A DNA stretch of 64,000 nt, taken from the NCBI RefSeq assembly GCF_002335445.1, contig NZ_BDME01000001.1:372001-436000 (forward strand), in the 5' to 3' direction. A program made the translations under genes and the position numbers. Below the pieces are notes generated by a model. The model saw only the letters and a list, made by a program, of their open reading frames with translations. It did not search any database and was not told where the DNA came from. This DNA comes from Lebetimonas natsushimae (lineage in GTDB: Bacteria; Campylobacterota; Campylobacteria; Campylobacterales; Nautiliaceae). Below, in pieces: positions 40,128 to 51,920 of this stretch (positions are counted from its first letter, which is position 1; the number at the start of each line of letters is the position of its first letter).

Positions 40128-40156
40128 TGTGTATTCATTAGGTTAATGAATGCACA
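40128..40156 (+). promoter_or_regulatory. Strong hairpin in the 5' untranslated region
   Basis: TGTGTATTCATTA-GGT-TAATGAATGCACA forms 13 pairs with one mismatch around a 3-base loop, near the expected transcript start and 22 bases before the ATG. Such a 5' hairpin typically protects an mRNA from decay. Confidence 0.55.
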
Positions 40157-40178: not shown

Positions 40179-40523
40179 ATGAGACGCTTAGCAAAAATGT
40201 TAGTAGCTGGAGCGCTACTTGCAAGTGTCACAGCAACAATGGCATTTGCTGATTACAATAAAGGGTACAAATATTATGAAAAATATGTGAAAAGAGCTTC
40301 ACATGTTAAAGGTACCGATTTTCTTAAAATAATTGGTGCTAAAACACCTGATGACATTAATGCATTATTCAAAGATAATGCAAAACCGTTAATTAGCCTA
40401 TTAGAAAAAAAAGGTCAAAAAAAAGCTGCAAAAGCTATTGAAAAAATCGCTAAAAAACACAAACTTAACGATTTAAAAGACTTTTTAGTAGGAATGGTTA
40501 ACGGTAAAATTCCAGCTGGCTGA
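40179..40523 (+). CDS. Small secreted haem-less cytochrome-like protein (paralogue 2)
   Basis: The start at 40179 (MRRLAKMLVAGALLASVTATMAFA) has an AAAGGAG site and a clear signal peptide cleaved near AFA-DYNKG. The mature part (about 90 residues) is lysine-rich and helical: DYNKGYKYYEKYVKRASHVKGTDFLK, then PDDINALFKDNAKPLISLL and a closing DFLVGMVNGKIPAG. It follows the pattern of small Campylobacterota cytochromes c, but the CxxCH is replaced by a sequence without cysteine. It is paralogous to the gene at 17230. Strong promoter, 5' hairpin and terminator suggest high expression. Function unknown. Confidence 0.65.
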   Translation: MRRLAKMLVAGALLASVTATMAFADYNKGYKYYEKYVKRASHVKGTDFLKIIGAKTPDDINALFKDNAKPLISLLEKKGQKKAAKAIEKIAKKHKLNDLKDFLVGMVNGKIPAG

Positions 40524-42284: not shown

Positions 42285-42301
42285 AAATACCGGCGGTATT
42301 T
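42285..42301. promoter_or_regulatory. Perfect 17-base palindrome upstream of selA
   Basis: AAATACCG-G-CGGTATTT lies 15 bases before the selA start and about 30 bases before the divergent gene. It could be an operator for both genes, or form a 6-base-pair hairpin in the selA leader. Confidence 0.6.
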
Positions 42302-45672: not shown

Positions 45673-46716
45673 TTATTTAACGACTAAAGGAACTTCTTTA
45701 AATTCTTTAACGATTGCTATTGCCTTTGCGTTTATTCCTTTATCTTCCATTCTTTTTAAAAGTTTTTCCGCTTTTTCCTGAGATATACTGATTAAAAGTC
45801 CCCCGCTTGTCTGTGCGTCAAATAAAATCATCTGTTCTTCAAAACTTAAGTTTTTTTCAAATTTTACTTTTCCTTCTAAAAACATTTGATTATTATAACT
45901 TCCGGCAGGTATAATTCCCATAGCGGCCTGATTTATTGCTTCTTTTAAGAAAGGTACATTTTCAAATTCTATCTCTATTGTAAAATTATTTGCACTCATT
46001 TCATATAAATGTCCCAAAAGTCCAAAACCTGTAACGTCAGTCATTGCATTTACGCCAATTTCCCTGGCAATAAGGCTTGGTTTATAATTTAGCGTTCTTA
46101 AAATATCAGCGACTTCGGCGGCTGTGTTTTCATCCACTAAATCGGCTTTTATTGCCGTTGTTAAAATTCCCATTCCAAGAGGTTTTGTAAGAATAATTAC
46201 ATTATCTTTTTTTAAAGTGTTGTTTCTTATTATTTTTTGCGGATGAATTGTGCCTGTAACACTTAGACCGTAAATCATCTCCGGTGTTTCTATTGTATGA
46301 CCTCCTGCCAGTACCCCGCCGCACTCTTTTATTTTACTTTCCCCGCCTTTTAATATTTCATTTAAAACTTCTTTTCCGTGATGGCAGTTGTCAAATCCGA
46401 CAAGATTAAGGGCAGTTTTTACATCCCCTCCCATTGCAAACACATCGCTTAGGGAATTGGCAGCCGCAATCTGTCCGTAAACAAAAGGGTCGTCAACCAC
46501 AGGCGTTATAAAATCGGCTGTTTGCACAAGTGCTAAATCATCTGTTAATTTATATACACTTGCATCTTCATTTCCCTCAAATCCGACTATTAAATTTTCA
46601 TTTTTGCCATCAAGAACTTTTGTCGCTTTGTTTAGCTCCTCCGGAGCCAGTTTTCCTGCTCAGCCAGCTGCTCTTACATATTTTGTGAGTTTTGCACTGT
46701 TGTTTAGTTTAAGCAT
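45673..46716 (-). CDS. selD: Selenide, water dikinase SelD, itself a selenoprotein (UGA at codon 19)
   Basis: SelD makes selenophosphate from selenide and ATP. Read from the ATG at 46716 (AAAGGAAATAT upstream), the 347-residue protein starts MLKLNNSAKLTKYVRAAG, then UGA (46662-46660), then AGKLAPEEL. SelD proteins have Cys or Sec exactly here, so UGA is selenocysteine 19. A SECIS hairpin follows. Later motifs are QTADFITPVVDDPFVYGQIAAANSLSD and GGDVKTAL and GGHTIETPE. A gene caller would wrongly begin it at 46527. It is the last gene of the minus-strand operon. Confidence 0.95.
46634..46648 (-). promoter_or_regulatory. SECIS element of selD
   Basis: On the minus strand GGCTCC-GGA-GGAGCT forms a 6-base-pair stem (one G-U at its base) starting 12 bases after the UGA codon. 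GG of the loop is 18-19 bases after UGA, where bacterial SECIS loops sit. Confidence 0.75.
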
Positions 46717-47360: not shown

Positions 47361-47942
47361 TTACTCTCCCATAAACAGATATTGTGCCCAAAAAGGGTAG
47401 GTTAGCATAATTAATACAAAGACTGTGCCGATGCTTAAATATTTTACATAATTTTTGCAAATGCTGCCGCTGCAAACAGGCCTTTTTCTTAATTTTAAAA
47501 AATAATTCAGCCACAAATAAATAATAATAGTAGCGGCCGCAATTGTAAAATAAATTCTATAAGGTGCAAAAATATGTAAAAACGAAAGACTTCCGACACT
47601 CACTCCAAAAATTAAAAATAATAATGGTCCTAAACAGCAGGTGCTTGCCAAAATTGCAGTTATTGCGGCACCAGCTATAAGAGCCCAGAAAGATTTTGAT
47701 TCTTTACTTTCCGGAATTTCGCAAGAATAACCTTTTATGGCGTTAATTATTGTATTTTTCCCTTCTTTTTTTTCATTAAAATAAATTCCCTGGTTTTGTA
47801 AAAATCTTTTTACATTTTGGATTGAAGAGAAGGAATTAAGTTTTATTTCCAAAATTCCTTCCTCCATTTCTTCTAATGCCTCTTTTGTTTTAAGTACAGG
47901 TTCCGGACAAGCTAAATTTCTTAAATCCAGTTTTTTTACCAT
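47361..47942 (-). CDS. TusA-MerT fusion membrane protein
   Basis: The 193-residue protein joins two families. Residues 1-78 are a TusA/SirA domain with C12 in ACPEPVLKTKEALEEM and C74 in GYSCEI; they closely follow the TusA half of the YedF protein at 49076. Residues 85-193 are MerT-like: three transmembrane helices (85-110, 128-149, 166-188), a vicinal C102-C103 in ASTCCLGPLLFLIFG, and C157-x4-C162 in the second loop, as in MerT. TusA would be cytoplasmic. I infer that it takes up a selenium compound from the MerP-like protein and passes it to a TusA-type carrier. Mercury is an alternative ligand. Confidence 0.85.
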   Translation of the reverse strand: MVKKLDLRNLACPEPVLKTKEALEEMEEGILEIKLNSFSSIQNVKRFLQNQGIYFNEKKEGKNTIINAIKGYSCEIPESKESKSFWALIAGAAITAILASTCCLGPLLFLIFGVSVGSLSFLHIFAPYRIYFTIAAATIIIYLWLNYFLKLRKRPVCSGSICKNYVKYLSIGTVFVLIMLTYPFWAQYLFMGE

Positions 47943-49066
47943 TAAAACAGTTCCTGAGAAGTAATTTTATATTCAAAACTTTTTGGTACGTAATAATTTA
48001 ATACATCGTCATTTACCTCAGCATATGGATAACCGAACATATTAAGAGGATATTGCACCGGTTTTGGATAAAGCACAAAATCTCTTGCATGGTTAAATCC
48101 AACCCAGTTCATTTCCCATGAGTGAAGATATTTTTTAACCAATTTTTGCACTTTTGGATTGTCGTAAGAATATTTTTCCACTAATTCAAGTTTTGTAACA
48201 TCCGCCGGATCTGTTGGTATCCAACCGGCACCCGGAATGTAATATTCAGCCCTGCAGTGCTGCCATGTTGTAATATTTGCAAAACCTTTGCTATCGCTTT
48301 TTCCAAGTGCTTTGTCAAAATGGCTTTTTCCAAGTCTGATACCAAAAACTTCTCTTGCTGGAATCCCCGCCGCTCTTGTCAGGGCTGTAAAAAGTGAGCT
48401 TAAATCTGTACATTTTCCTCCAAACCATCCGTTTTTATAAATATATTCGGCAGTCGGTTGTTTTTGTTCCTGCATCATTTTCCCAACTTCACCTTTTCCA
48501 CATCCTACTACTTTAGGATTTCTGAAAGTGTGAGCCGTACACCACAAATAAATAGCTTTTACTTTTTGGAATCTATCTTTTTTACCTTTGGTAATAAGTT
48601 CCGCCACTTCTTTAACAAGCCCGTTTGTTGGAATATGAGCAGTCGGTTTTAGATATTTAAGCACCTCTTTTGGATACGGCAGATTTTTTTTGCTGGCTTC
48701 TTTAATCAGTTCTAAAGGAACGCTTCTGTCTTTTGTTTCAATTTCCATTTCCATTGTCAAAATTTTTGGCATTGCTGATTTTTCCCACTCGGCATAAAAA
48801 GTATTTGCATTATATTCATTTTTATTATTTATATCGTAATCGTTGTAATTTCCACCAAATCTTAAAAATTTTATTTTTTGATAAGGTGCGTTGTATGGAA
48901 GAGGGTTCCAAAGTCTGGCCGGATAAACCGGTTCGTCGTATTTTATATTGAAATAATATTCAACTCTGAATCTTCTAACCTTTTCATCATTAGCACTTGC
49001 AATACTCGGCAGTGATGCCGTCAGTCCTAAAGCTGCACCTGTTTTTAAAAATTCTCTTCTTTTCAT
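47942..49066 (-). CDS. Tat-exported transglutaminase-like protein
   Basis: The 374-residue protein starts MKRREFLKTGAALGLTASLP, a Tat signal with RR at residues 3-4. A transglutaminase-like catalytic triad is visible: C219 in GWFGGKCTDLSSLFTALTRAAGIPAREVFG, H270 in WQHCRAEYY, and D286 in WIPTDPAD. Such domains act as cysteine peptidases or peptide-bond transferases. A second cysteine group (C176, C189, in AIYLWCTAHTF and KVVGCGKGEV) is not part of the family core. Its presence between yedF and tusA-merT is unexplained. Its stop overlaps the next start by one base. Confidence 0.75.
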   Translation of the reverse strand: MKRREFLKTGAALGLTASLPSIASANDEKVRRFRVEYYFNIKYDEPVYPARLWNPLPYNAPYQKIKFLRFGGNYNDYDINNKNEYNANTFYAEWEKSAMPKILTMEMEIETKDRSVPLELIKEASKKNLPYPKEVLKYLKPTAHIPTNGLVKEVAELITKGKKDRFQKVKAIYLWCTAHTFRNPKVVGCGKGEVGKMMQEQKQPTAEYIYKNGWFGGKCTDLSSLFTALTRAAGIPAREVFGIRLGKSHFDKALGKSDSKGFANITTWQHCRAEYYIPGAGWIPTDPADVTKLELVEKYSYDNPKVQKLVKKYLHSWEMNWVGFNHARDFVLYPKPVQYPLNMFGYPYAEVNDDVLNYYVPKSFEYKITSQELF

Positions 49067-49075
49067 TTTGCTTCC

Positions 49076-49666
49076 CTATAAACTTATTGTATTTTTGTGA
49101 AGTAAAAAGTCCATTGTATCGTATGCGTTTCCAATTTCTCCGACTTTAAGTTCTTCAGGCGGAATTTTGTAATAATTCATACATACGCCGCAGGAATAGA
49201 TTTTTACACCCCTTTTTTCAAATTCTTTTAGAATTTCTATTGTTTTTTCATTTTTTGAAGTTAAAAACACACCTCTGTTTACACATACTATAATTTCCGG
49301 AAGTTTATTAAATTCAAGTGTGGTTTTTAAAAATCCCTCCATCAATATATGACCAAGCTCACCTTCTCCTACTTTATCATCTTTTATGAACAGAACTTTA
49401 TCTAAGAATTTGTCGCTATCATCTTCTTGTGGGGCGATGCTGCACTCATATCCTTTTACAATTCTGATTATGGTTTCACCGTTGTCAAGTTTTTCTTCTT
49501 CTGCCACAAGCCCCTGATTTGCTGCAAATCTTTTAACATTTTGAACAGATGATACAGCATTTACCAAAACTTCTAAAATTCCTTCATCCATACTTTCCAA
49601 TGCTTTTTTTGTTTCAAGTACCGGTTGTGGACATGCCATATTTCTGCAATCTATTTTTTTATTCAT
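49076..49666 (-). CDS. yedF: Selenium metabolism protein YedF (TusA plus DsrE-like)
   Basis: The 196-residue protein has an N-terminal TusA domain (C12 in NMACPQPVLETKKALESM, C75 in KGYECSI) and a C-terminal DsrE-like domain (KVLFIKDDKVGEGELGHILMEGFLKTTL, C128, and C159-G-V-C162). This two-domain form is the YedF family that co-occurs with SelD across genomes. It is thought to carry selenium or sulfur as a bound persulfide/selenide. The TusA half is paralogous to that of the MerT fusion. Overlaps the ATPase gene by 8 bases. Confidence 0.88.
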   Translation of the reverse strand: MNKKIDCRNMACPQPVLETKKALESMDEGILEVLVNAVSSVQNVKRFAANQGLVAEEEKLDNGETIIRIVKGYECSIAPQEDDSDKFLDKVLFIKDDKVGEGELGHILMEGFLKTTLEFNKLPEIIVCVNRGVFLTSKNEKTIEILKEFEKRGVKIYSCGVCMNYYKIPPEELKVGEIGNAYDTMDFLLHKNTISL

Positions 49667-50426
49667 TTATTCCTCCTTTTAACATTTCATATCCGCTTAA
49701 AGCCGCTCCGAATGCCCCCATCATCTGAGGATATTCGGGAGTGTATATTTCTTTTTTTAGTTTTTTTGAAAGCAATTCTTTTAAAAGTGAATTTTTAGCG
49801 CCTCCTCCTGTGAATACCACTTTATCTTCCGGTCTTATGCTTTTAGCCATTCCCGCAAGTCTATTGGCAATTGAATCAATAATTCCGTATCCTATATTTT
49901 CAGGCTTTTCTTTTTTTGCTATAAGAGAAATTACCTCAGATTCGGCAAATACCGCACACATTGAAGATATTTGTATAACTTTGTTGGCTTTTTTACAAAA
50001 ATCTCCAAATTCATCAAGCGGAATCTGTAGTTTTGCAGCTGCCATTTCTATAAATTTTCCTGTCCCGGCTGCGCATTTATCGTTCATTTTAAAGTTGTCA
50101 AAATTTCCGCCTTCAGTTACTTTTATTACCTTGCTGTCTTGTCCTCCTAAATCAATAACTGTCCTAACATCTGGAAAGAAAAAATAAGCCCCTTTCGCAT
50201 GGGCTTTGATTTCACTTATAACCGGCACGTCAAATGCTTCTTGTATCATGTATCTTCCATACCCAGTGGCGACAAGAGTTTCAATTGGTTTATCTTTTAA
50301 ATACTCTTTTACCTGTTCGTCAGGATTTATAACTGTATCTAATACTTTAATGTCTATAATATTTTTGTTTTCATCAATTCCCACAATTTTTGTATAGGTT
50401 GAGCCTATGTCAACTCCGTAATACAT
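49659..50426 (-). CDS. ATPase activator of the double-cubane reductase (YjiL/HgdC-like)
   Basis: The 255-residue protein belongs to the BadF/BadG/BcrA/BcrD ATPase family: GVDIGSTYTKIVGID as phosphate loop, VIDLGGQDSKVIKV, and two cysteines C118 (NDKCAAGTGKFIEMAA) and C157 (SSMCAVFAESEVISL) that bridge a [4Fe-4S] cluster between two subunits. Such activators use ATP to push low-potential electrons to a partner dehydratase-like protein. Size and partner match E. coli YjiL, the reductase of double-cubane cluster proteins. One base overlaps the partner gene. Confidence 0.85.
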   Translation of the reverse strand: MYYGVDIGSTYTKIVGIDENKNIIDIKVLDTVINPDEQVKEYLKDKPIETLVATGYGRYMIQEAFDVPVISEIKAHAKGAYFFFPDVRTVIDLGGQDSKVIKVTEGGNFDNFKMNDKCAAGTGKFIEMAAAKLQIPLDEFGDFCKKANKVIQISSMCAVFAESEVISLIAKKEKPENIGYGIIDSIANRLAGMAKSIRPEDKVVFTGGGAKNSLLKELLSKKLKKEIYTPEYPQMMGAFGAALSGYEMLKGGINE

Positions 50427-51739
50427 TAAAATCCTTTAAATTTCACATTCTTTTTAAATGAAATGCTTTCTAAAAATGCTTCAACCCTTGTTTTAATCTG
50501 GCCCATATCTTCCATTGAATAATCTGATTCAATTCTTAAAATCGGTATATTTTCAGCCTGGAGTCTGTCTATTACTTTTTTTGATTCAACATTATATGTA
50601 TGACAGAAAGAGAGTGAATAATAAATGATTCCGTCTGCTTCTCTTTCTTTGTACATTTTGATAATTTTGTCTATTCTCCCCTCATTCGGTGTAAAACATG
50701 CACAGTCTATTTTCATGTATCTCTCAAGCATTCTTTCCATTAAATCATCAACATTTTCAGCCCATTGTGTATCTATATTGTCTTTATAGTATCTGTGACC
50801 GATACATGCTTCTTCGTTTATAATAACGCCTCCTGTTGTTTCGACTATATGGTGAAGTTTCCAGTTTGGAGGCGCCATAGGCGTACCTATTACCATAATT
50901 CTTGGAGTGTCTTTTGGTACTACAGAGACTTTATTTTTTATTCTCTCTTCAAGTTCATCACATAGTTCGTTAACTTTTTGCGTAAATCTTTCTGGGTCGT
51001 CATAAAAAGAGATTTGATTAATTAAAAGTCCGTCTTTTCCGCTGATTGGCACTACATCAGGATACATTCCTCTGAGTTTGTCAAGACGCTGCATTGCCTC
51101 TCTTTTTTTATTGATAATTTCAATTCCTTTTTTAAGTTCTTCAAATGTCAGTTCTCTTCCTATTATTGATTCTATGTGTTTTTTAAAATCATATATTTCG
51201 CTTTTCCATAGTTCTTTTTCTTTTTCCCTTTTCATTTGAGGAATATGCATTACATGGGTTGGATGGATTTCATTTAAAATTTCCCACGTTTTTTTCTTTG
51301 CCTCGCAGCTTGTTTCACCGTAGATAAAATCTGAAGCCTGTGTATAAGGGCATGTTCTTTGGACTTTAAACCCGTAAGCGGATTTGATTAAAGGACATAT
51401 GTTTCTTGGTAAATCCCTTTCGGCATCTGCAATTGAAAATTCAGCCCCGCCGCATAAACCATAACAAGCACCGTCAGCCCCGACAATTATCTCTTCTGGT
51501 ACAAAAATACAAAAAGTTCCAACTAAAGGTTTTCCTTCTTTTTTCTTTTCCATAAGCTCTTCTATTCTTTTACCGTGTATTTCACTCATTACATAATCAA
51601 AATATTCCATTGCTTTTGGTCTGTTTTCCTGTTTTAAATAAAATTCGGGATATATTTCACCAAGTGCAGCCAATAATTCATTATGTTTTTCTATATCCAT
51701 ACCTAATTCTTGATATAAAGGTGTGTAATCTTTAGACAT
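50426..51739 (-). CDS. Double-cubane cluster protein, 2-hydroxyacyl-CoA dehydratase family (YjiM/HgdB-like)
   Basis: The 437-residue protein is of the 2-hydroxyacyl-CoA dehydratase D-component family: [25 protein letters not shown] gives C77, C92 and C96, with C115, C130 and C145 next, and later cysteines in [18 protein letters not shown] and SFCHTYN. The number of cysteines fits a double-cubane [8Fe-9S] cluster protein, rather than an acyl-CoA enzyme, since no alpha-subunit or CoA-gene neighbours exist. Together with the ATPase it may reduce a small molecule; in this selenium operon, reduction of an oxidised or elemental selenium species is inferred. Longer than YjiM (about 383). Confidence 0.75.
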
Positions 51740-51880
51740 ACTTATCCTTTTTTAATTTTTTTATTTTTTTTCTTAGGATAAGCCTTATCCTTTTAAACAA
51801 TAAATTTTGTAGAGGTTTTAAAGAAGTACATCATGAAGTTTTTTGCGGACTTCATGTGTTTCCCACCCTGGGAACTTGCT
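51740..51880 (-). promoter_or_regulatory. Structured leader of the selenium operon with a possible translational switch
   Basis: On the minus strand the roughly 140-base leader holds two stable hairpins, TTCCCA-GGG-TGGGAA (51875 to 51861) and CATGAAG-N11-CTTCATG (51855 to 51831). Further down is AGGATAAG-G-CTTATCCT (51791 to 51775), then an A/T linker of about 26 bases, then a second AGGATAAG (51748 to 51741) that is the ribosome-binding site right before the ATG. The middle CTTATCCT can pair either with the first or the second AGGATAAG, so it could hide or free the ribosome site. Confidence 0.55.
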
Positions 51881-51886
51881 GTAGAA

Positions 51887-51920
51887 ATTATAACTATATT
51901 TTCCTTAAAGTTAGCTTAAT
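51887..51920 (-). promoter_or_regulatory. TTTAAG-N5-TTTAAG-like promoter (copy C) of the selenium operon
   Basis: On the minus strand ATTAAG-CTAAC-TTTAAG (51920 to 51904) is followed after 11 bases by TATAAT (51892 to 51887). It differs from the copy in front of the formate dehydrogenase cluster (58706) by only one base in 17. Confidence 0.7.

Follow-up and report, generated by a model that had tools for sequence, protein, structure and literature searches.

In E. coli, selA is preceded by a CGUGU-loop hairpin, and Thanbichler and Bock are said to have described in 2002 a SelB-dependent control acting at this selA/selAB leader hairpin. To our knowledge, little is understood of how bacteria detect that selenium is sufficient. 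The selenium regulatory network was described as unclear in a comparative-genomics study (PMC5322559). Among the papers searched, none dealt with a selenium riboswitch or with the leader studied here.

In the window, i.e. the whole 64-kb stretch of DNA analysed in this study, a hairpin is present at selA at a place equivalent to that of the E. coli hairpin. Such hairpins were found at selA in five Nautiliaceae genomes; the leader studied here precedes a different gene. It is a 141-nt leader on the minus strand, located 5' of a gene for a double-cubane-cluster reductase, and it contains a three-way junction of the stems P1, P2 and P3. Our analysis suggests that this leader is probably a selenium-status switch of the selenium regulon in Campylobacterota.

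Results

Gene cluster and promoter of the leader

The leader stands before a cluster of selenium-related genes (Table 1), which also includes genes for a MerP-like protein and a DsrE-like protein. The spacing of the genes suggests that the cluster is one transcript. The genes selA, selB and selC lie close to the cluster on the plus strand. In the 5' to 3' direction, the hairpin UUCCCA-GGG-UGGGAA is followed by the segment ACACAUGA and by a second hairpin; after a spacer come AGGATAAG-G-CTTATCCT and then an A-rich stretch that leads to the AGGATAAG ribosome site.

Table 1. Coordinates of the leader features and of the neighbouring selenium genes in the window.
Feature	Coordinates	Strand	Evidence or remark
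TATAAT, -10 box of the promoter; transcript predicted to start near 51880	51887..51892	-	spacing to P1 common to 38/39 homologous sites
Three-way-junction leader element; P1 = AAG(U) 51877-51874 with (A)CUU 51827-51824	51824..51877	-	homologue alignment, class covariation
P2 hairpin UUCCCA-GGG-UGGGAA, SECIS-like GG loop	51860..51874	-	descriptor match; loop conserved in class
P3: ACA-CAUGAAGU ... ACUUCAUG-(A)-UGU, conserved ACACAUGA segment	51828..51859	-	U-A to C-G compensatory change in G016
P3 inner hairpin	51856-51832	-	lengthened by ACA/UGU with bulged A
Decoy AGGATAAG copy, G, then CTTATCCT, complement of ribosome site	51775..51791	-	exact in sister genome G016
AGGATAAG, first copy	51791-51784	-	
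CTTATCCT	51782-51775	-	
Second AGGATAAG, ribosome-binding site of reductase gene (ATG at 51739)	51741..51748	-	
Double-cubane-cluster anaerobic reductase, first gene of cluster	50426..51739	-	NF040772, 479 bits, cut-off 350
Activase of reductase	49659..50426	-	TIGR00241 over cut-off
YedF, selenium metabolism protein	49076..49666	-	TIGR03527, 195 bits, cut-off 110
Transglutaminase-like secreted protein	47942..49066	-	PF01841; Sulfurospirillum homologues with own leader copy
TusA domain fused to MerT-like membrane domain	47361-47942	-	adjoins MerP-like protein, within selenium cluster
SelD with in-frame UGA (selenocysteine)	45673..46716	-	TIGR00476
UGA codon of selD	46660-46662	-	
SECIS hairpin of selD, UGGCUCC-GGA-GGAGCUA	46633-46649	-	
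Hairpin AAAUACC-GGC-GGUAUUU then AACA, start of selA-selB transcript	42285..42301	+	compensatory variants in four more Nautiliaceae genomes

Analysis of the homologous sites revealed a -10 box (at least 5 of 6 bases matching) about 6 nt before P1 in 38 of 39 sites, compared with 11% at random positions. Because the box lies just 5' of P1, the junction probably forms the 5' end of the transcript. A leader peptide with an in-frame UGA was also considered and was rejected, since no conserved upstream frame with a UGA was found in the leaders.

Structure and covariation of the three-way junction

In orthologous reductase leaders from other genera of Campylobacterota, P1 is for example UGCUGU/ACAGCA and P2 is GUCUAA-GGC-UUAGAC; AUACAUGA after P2 opens a long P3, which is closed by CAUGUA. 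Further variants were read directly for P1 (GCACGA/UCGUGC in L061, GAGCAA/UUGCUC in L009 and GAAAGUUU/AAACUUUC in L030) and for P2 (GUCCGG-GGA-CCGGAC in G017, GCCUUA-GGU-UAAGGC in L003 and ACCUAU-GGA-AUAGGU in an Arcobacter-like genome). The P2 loops of the class are GGC, GGT, GGA, GGG, AGTT and similar. The sister genome G016 retains the leader, with its base-pair change in P3.

Among 37 distinct sequences, both sides were changed in 20 of the 23 pairs and 93.1% of the pairing cells were paired, against 77.0% in shuffles and 24-44% with slid partners; none of 500 shuffles attained any of the covariation measures, and all these counts lean toward the model because the alignment was fitted to it. 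Covariation among homologous leaders, a check proposed in an earlier note on this DNA, strongly supports the upstream junction, which that note had seen merely as two stable hairpins. Comparison of the window leader and six homologues with Rfam 15 at the gathering score gave no convincing family match. We are close to certain that the leader belongs to a real class of cis-regulatory RNA of selenium genes that is absent from Rfam 15.

Variation in the number of hairpins was also observed. One leader located 5' of a reductase gene (L021, genome G242) has an extra hairpin, AUACCAACC...GGUUGGUAU, between P1 and P2, and two leaders (L011 and L113) each have a tandem pair of P2-type hairpins.

Octamers and ribosome site in the window's genus

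The earlier note had placed its emphasis on the octamer AGGATAAG, present twice with a single complement CTTATCCT between the copies, on two hairpins upstream of these and on a transcript start near 51880. The octamers are indeed present on the minus strand (Table 1), the two hairpins are UUCCCA-GGG-UGGGAA and CAUGAAGU-(9 nt)-ACUUCAUG, and the predicted start agrees with the TATAAT box and its equivalent spacing in the homologous sites. The leader folds more stably than its shuffles (z -2.7). When the 141-nt leader was shuffled 20,000 times with its dinucleotides preserved, an 8-mer present twice and flanking its own complement arose in 17 shuffles, which makes the octamer triple improbable by chance; CTTATCCT itself arose in 28. 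As the note had stated, CTTATCCT can pair with either copy of AGGATAAG; at 37 C both sister species have a preference of about 3.5 kcal/mol for pairing with the ribosome site rather than with the decoy.

The octamer triple is identical in the sister genome G016 and is not kept beyond the genus. A complement comparable to CTTATCCT was sought in the other 37 sites and none was found (mean z about 0). A general anti-ribosome-site sequence across all leaders was rejected, as it was not found in other genera. The octamer arrangement is real and conserved between sister species, but it is specific to the genus, and the feature found across the phylum is the upstream three-way junction.

Distribution and associated genes

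Two covariance models were used, R1 built from five sequences and the broader R2. R1 and R2 matches were found in 24 and 29 of 397 Campylobacterota genomes, at E 0.01 and 0.1. Of the 34 closest reductase loci, which are mostly from Campylobacterota, 27 have an R2 match (E 0.05 or better) just 5' of the gene; in the reductase-adjacent sequence of 46 loci from other phyla none was found (0/46). The leader of the window scores weakly with R2 (16 bits, E 0.54), and the G016 leader reaches a slightly higher score (20.8 bits). Membership of these two leaders in the class rests on their position, promoter spacing, P2 loop and ACACAUGA segment, together with intermediates from Nautiliaceae. These intermediates (L058, L107 and L267) have good R2 scores and a common GCUUCAUGAUGU arm. 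Weak matches in G054, G155, G291 and G117 were left out of the class. In G155 (L076, near 1510) a P2-like hairpin followed by AACA, without P1 and P3, precedes two genes, one acyl-CoA dehydrogenase-like and the other for an ABC binding protein.

The genes located 3' of the RNA or of its P2 core are those for the reductase, yedF, selD, the transglutaminase/MerT genes and three kinds of ABC transporter, represented by a TIGR04553 putative selenate ABC binding protein (matches of 330 and 342 bits, cut-off 250), a PstS-like and a MetN-like transporter. Reductase and transglutaminase genes form one cluster in the window and are apart in Sulfurospirillum-like genomes, where a separate copy of the RNA accompanies each of them. 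Two Sulfurospirillum-like loci (L060 and L164) have duplicated reductase genes with the RNA at each and a divergent copy of the RNA 5' of a MetN-like ABC transporter.

A descriptor consisting of a stem of at least 6 pairs, a GG-type loop, ACA and an upstream -10 box was applied to selected loci; 78 of 87 sites lie before one of these regulon genes, a result that describes placement and not genome-wide specificity, since genes of this kind had guided the choice of loci. Applied to the complete 64-kb window, the same descriptor gave three matches (the leader, selA and 40129), against 0.5 in shuffles. The match at 40129-40155 (+), a long hairpin with GG in its loop, stands upstream of selC and is followed by the ORF of a small secreted protein that starts at 40179; it is probably due to chance.

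SelB, SECIS elements and the selA hairpin

SelB over the cut-off was found in all 42 sampled genomes with the RNA and in 33 of the 58 without it (Fisher p 1.4e-7, with no correction for kinship; these counts place G017 among the genomes without the RNA, although a copy was found there later). Co-occurrence with SelB may be a mere sign of selenium use.

Analysis of the fdhA and selD SECIS hairpins in Campylobacterota genomes revealed a small loop with G as second and G or U as third base, and ACA downstream in most of them. The two sets have different alignment registers, so a mixed covariance model was abandoned. A G among the first two loop bases of a short hairpin, a criterion for SECIS elements, is also found in P2; the likeness is short, and in fdhA it is partly dictated by the protein sequence. 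The formate dehydrogenase alpha subunit gene of the window has an in-frame UGA at about 61978 (+) and a SECIS element, UCGCGGGGGUCGCGA followed by ACACAUGG.

The selA hairpin of the window lies between promoter and ribosome site, and its compensatory variants, with GGC or GGU loops and a following ACA, were found in G016, G003, G017 and G018. No such hairpin was found in the selA leaders read from Sulfurospirillum-like and Arcobacter-like genomes. Likeness of P2 to both SECIS and selA hairpins makes SelB the leading candidate effector.

Discussion

We give a probability of about 0.5 to the reading that the leader is a SECIS-like element bound by SelB with Sec-tRNA, which would restrain the selenium genes at selenium sufficiency. 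The junction at the 5' end of the transcript would present P2 as a SECIS-like hairpin with its GG loop and ACA just downstream; when selenium is sufficient, SelB with GTP and Sec-tRNA would assemble on P2, and this complex would reduce the translation of selD and of genes that serve selenium uptake and trafficking. The distance from the end of P1 to the start codon is about 20-25 nt in most genera, so that a bound complex would stand directly in the way of the ribosome. In the genus of the window this distance is longer, with the junction about 80 nt away, and there the pairing of AGGATAAG and CTTATCCT at the ribosome site would probably relay the signal. Points against a role of SelB are that known SECIS elements have nothing equivalent to P1 and P3, that the hairpin is missing from the selA leaders read in Sulfurospirillum-like and Arcobacter-like genomes and that the element of the window scores weakly. 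The earlier note had considered a selenium- or metal-responsive RNA or a protein-binding leader; gene context and covariation give good support to a selenium-responsive or protein-binding leader, and no pointer to molybdate or another metal was found.

The same junction might act without a protein, as a riboswitch whose ligand would be a small selenium metabolite such as selenide, selenophosphate, selenocysteine or a similar compound, and which would change how accessible the ribosome site is. This would fit the conservation of the junction, in which the GG, ACAU and AUGU positions hardly vary, its restriction to selenium genes and the presence of P1 and P3 in addition to a bare SECIS hairpin. 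The invariant bases are, however, few for a ligand pocket, P2 is retained where P1 and P3 are strongly altered, and a P2-like hairpin occurs alone at selA; hence we regard a riboswitch as unlikely. If true, it would control selenium uptake and assimilation across Campylobacterota, and as we know of no selenium riboswitch described before, the junction would be the first. It is likewise improbable, in our judgement, that another RNA-binding protein acts on P2, or that the junction serves mainly as a stabiliser of the mRNA 5' end, in either case with no link to SelB. The place of the structure at the very 5' end of the transcript favours such a role; a general stabiliser, however, would not be expected to be confined to selenium genes and to SelB-encoding genomes.

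Two further readings concern parts of the leader. The mutually exclusive pairing of AGGATAAG and CTTATCCT might alone be the main device, for example as a thermosensor, with the upstream hairpins incidental. Its energetic preference for the ribosome site and its exact conservation in G016 would fit, but it is the junction and not the octamers that the phylum shares, and this reading is very unlikely. P2, a near-perfect inverted repeat near the -10 box, could also be taken for a palindromic DNA operator of a transcription factor just 3' of the promoter. Against this, the P2 stem carries paired substitutions around a constant GG loop (UUCCCA/UGGGAA, GUCUAA/UUAGAC, GUCCGG/CCGGAC), and covariation extends to P1 and P3. 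Since stem covariation under a constant loop fits an RNA and does not fit a fixed DNA site, we consider an operator highly improbable.

Selenium sensing becomes directly accessible to study through an RNA that, throughout the phylum, precedes genes for selenium transporters, trafficking proteins and SelD. If SelB with Sec-tRNA is the effector, autoregulation of the E. coli selAB type would widen to a regulon-wide sensor of charged Sec-tRNA. Furthermore, the double-cubane reductase, YedF, the transglutaminase/MerT pair and the TIGR04553 transporters become tied to selenium supply, which makes their functions testable.

Comparison with known systems

Like riboswitches and other cis-regulatory RNAs of Rfam, the leaders are covarying 5' structures before functionally related genes; they differ in having no convincing Rfam match and no assigned ligand. 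With the bacterial SECIS elements of fdhA and selD, P2 shares a short stem, a small loop with G as second and G or U as third base, and ACA downstream. Unlike these elements, P2 is located in an untranslated leader, enclosed by P1 and followed by P3, and has no in-frame UGA upstream, because the predicted transcript start is at P1 and no conserved UGA frame precedes it. The E. coli selAB leader resembles the leader studied here in its hairpin with a small G-containing loop, which in both cases lies 5' of the gene, close to the ribosome site, and belongs to a genome that encodes SelB; the window's own selA has such a hairpin. The present leader differs in that the hairpin, a candidate SelB site, is part of a three-way junction and in that the RNA stands before a regulon of genes for selenium uptake, for trafficking and for SelD, and is not limited to selAB.
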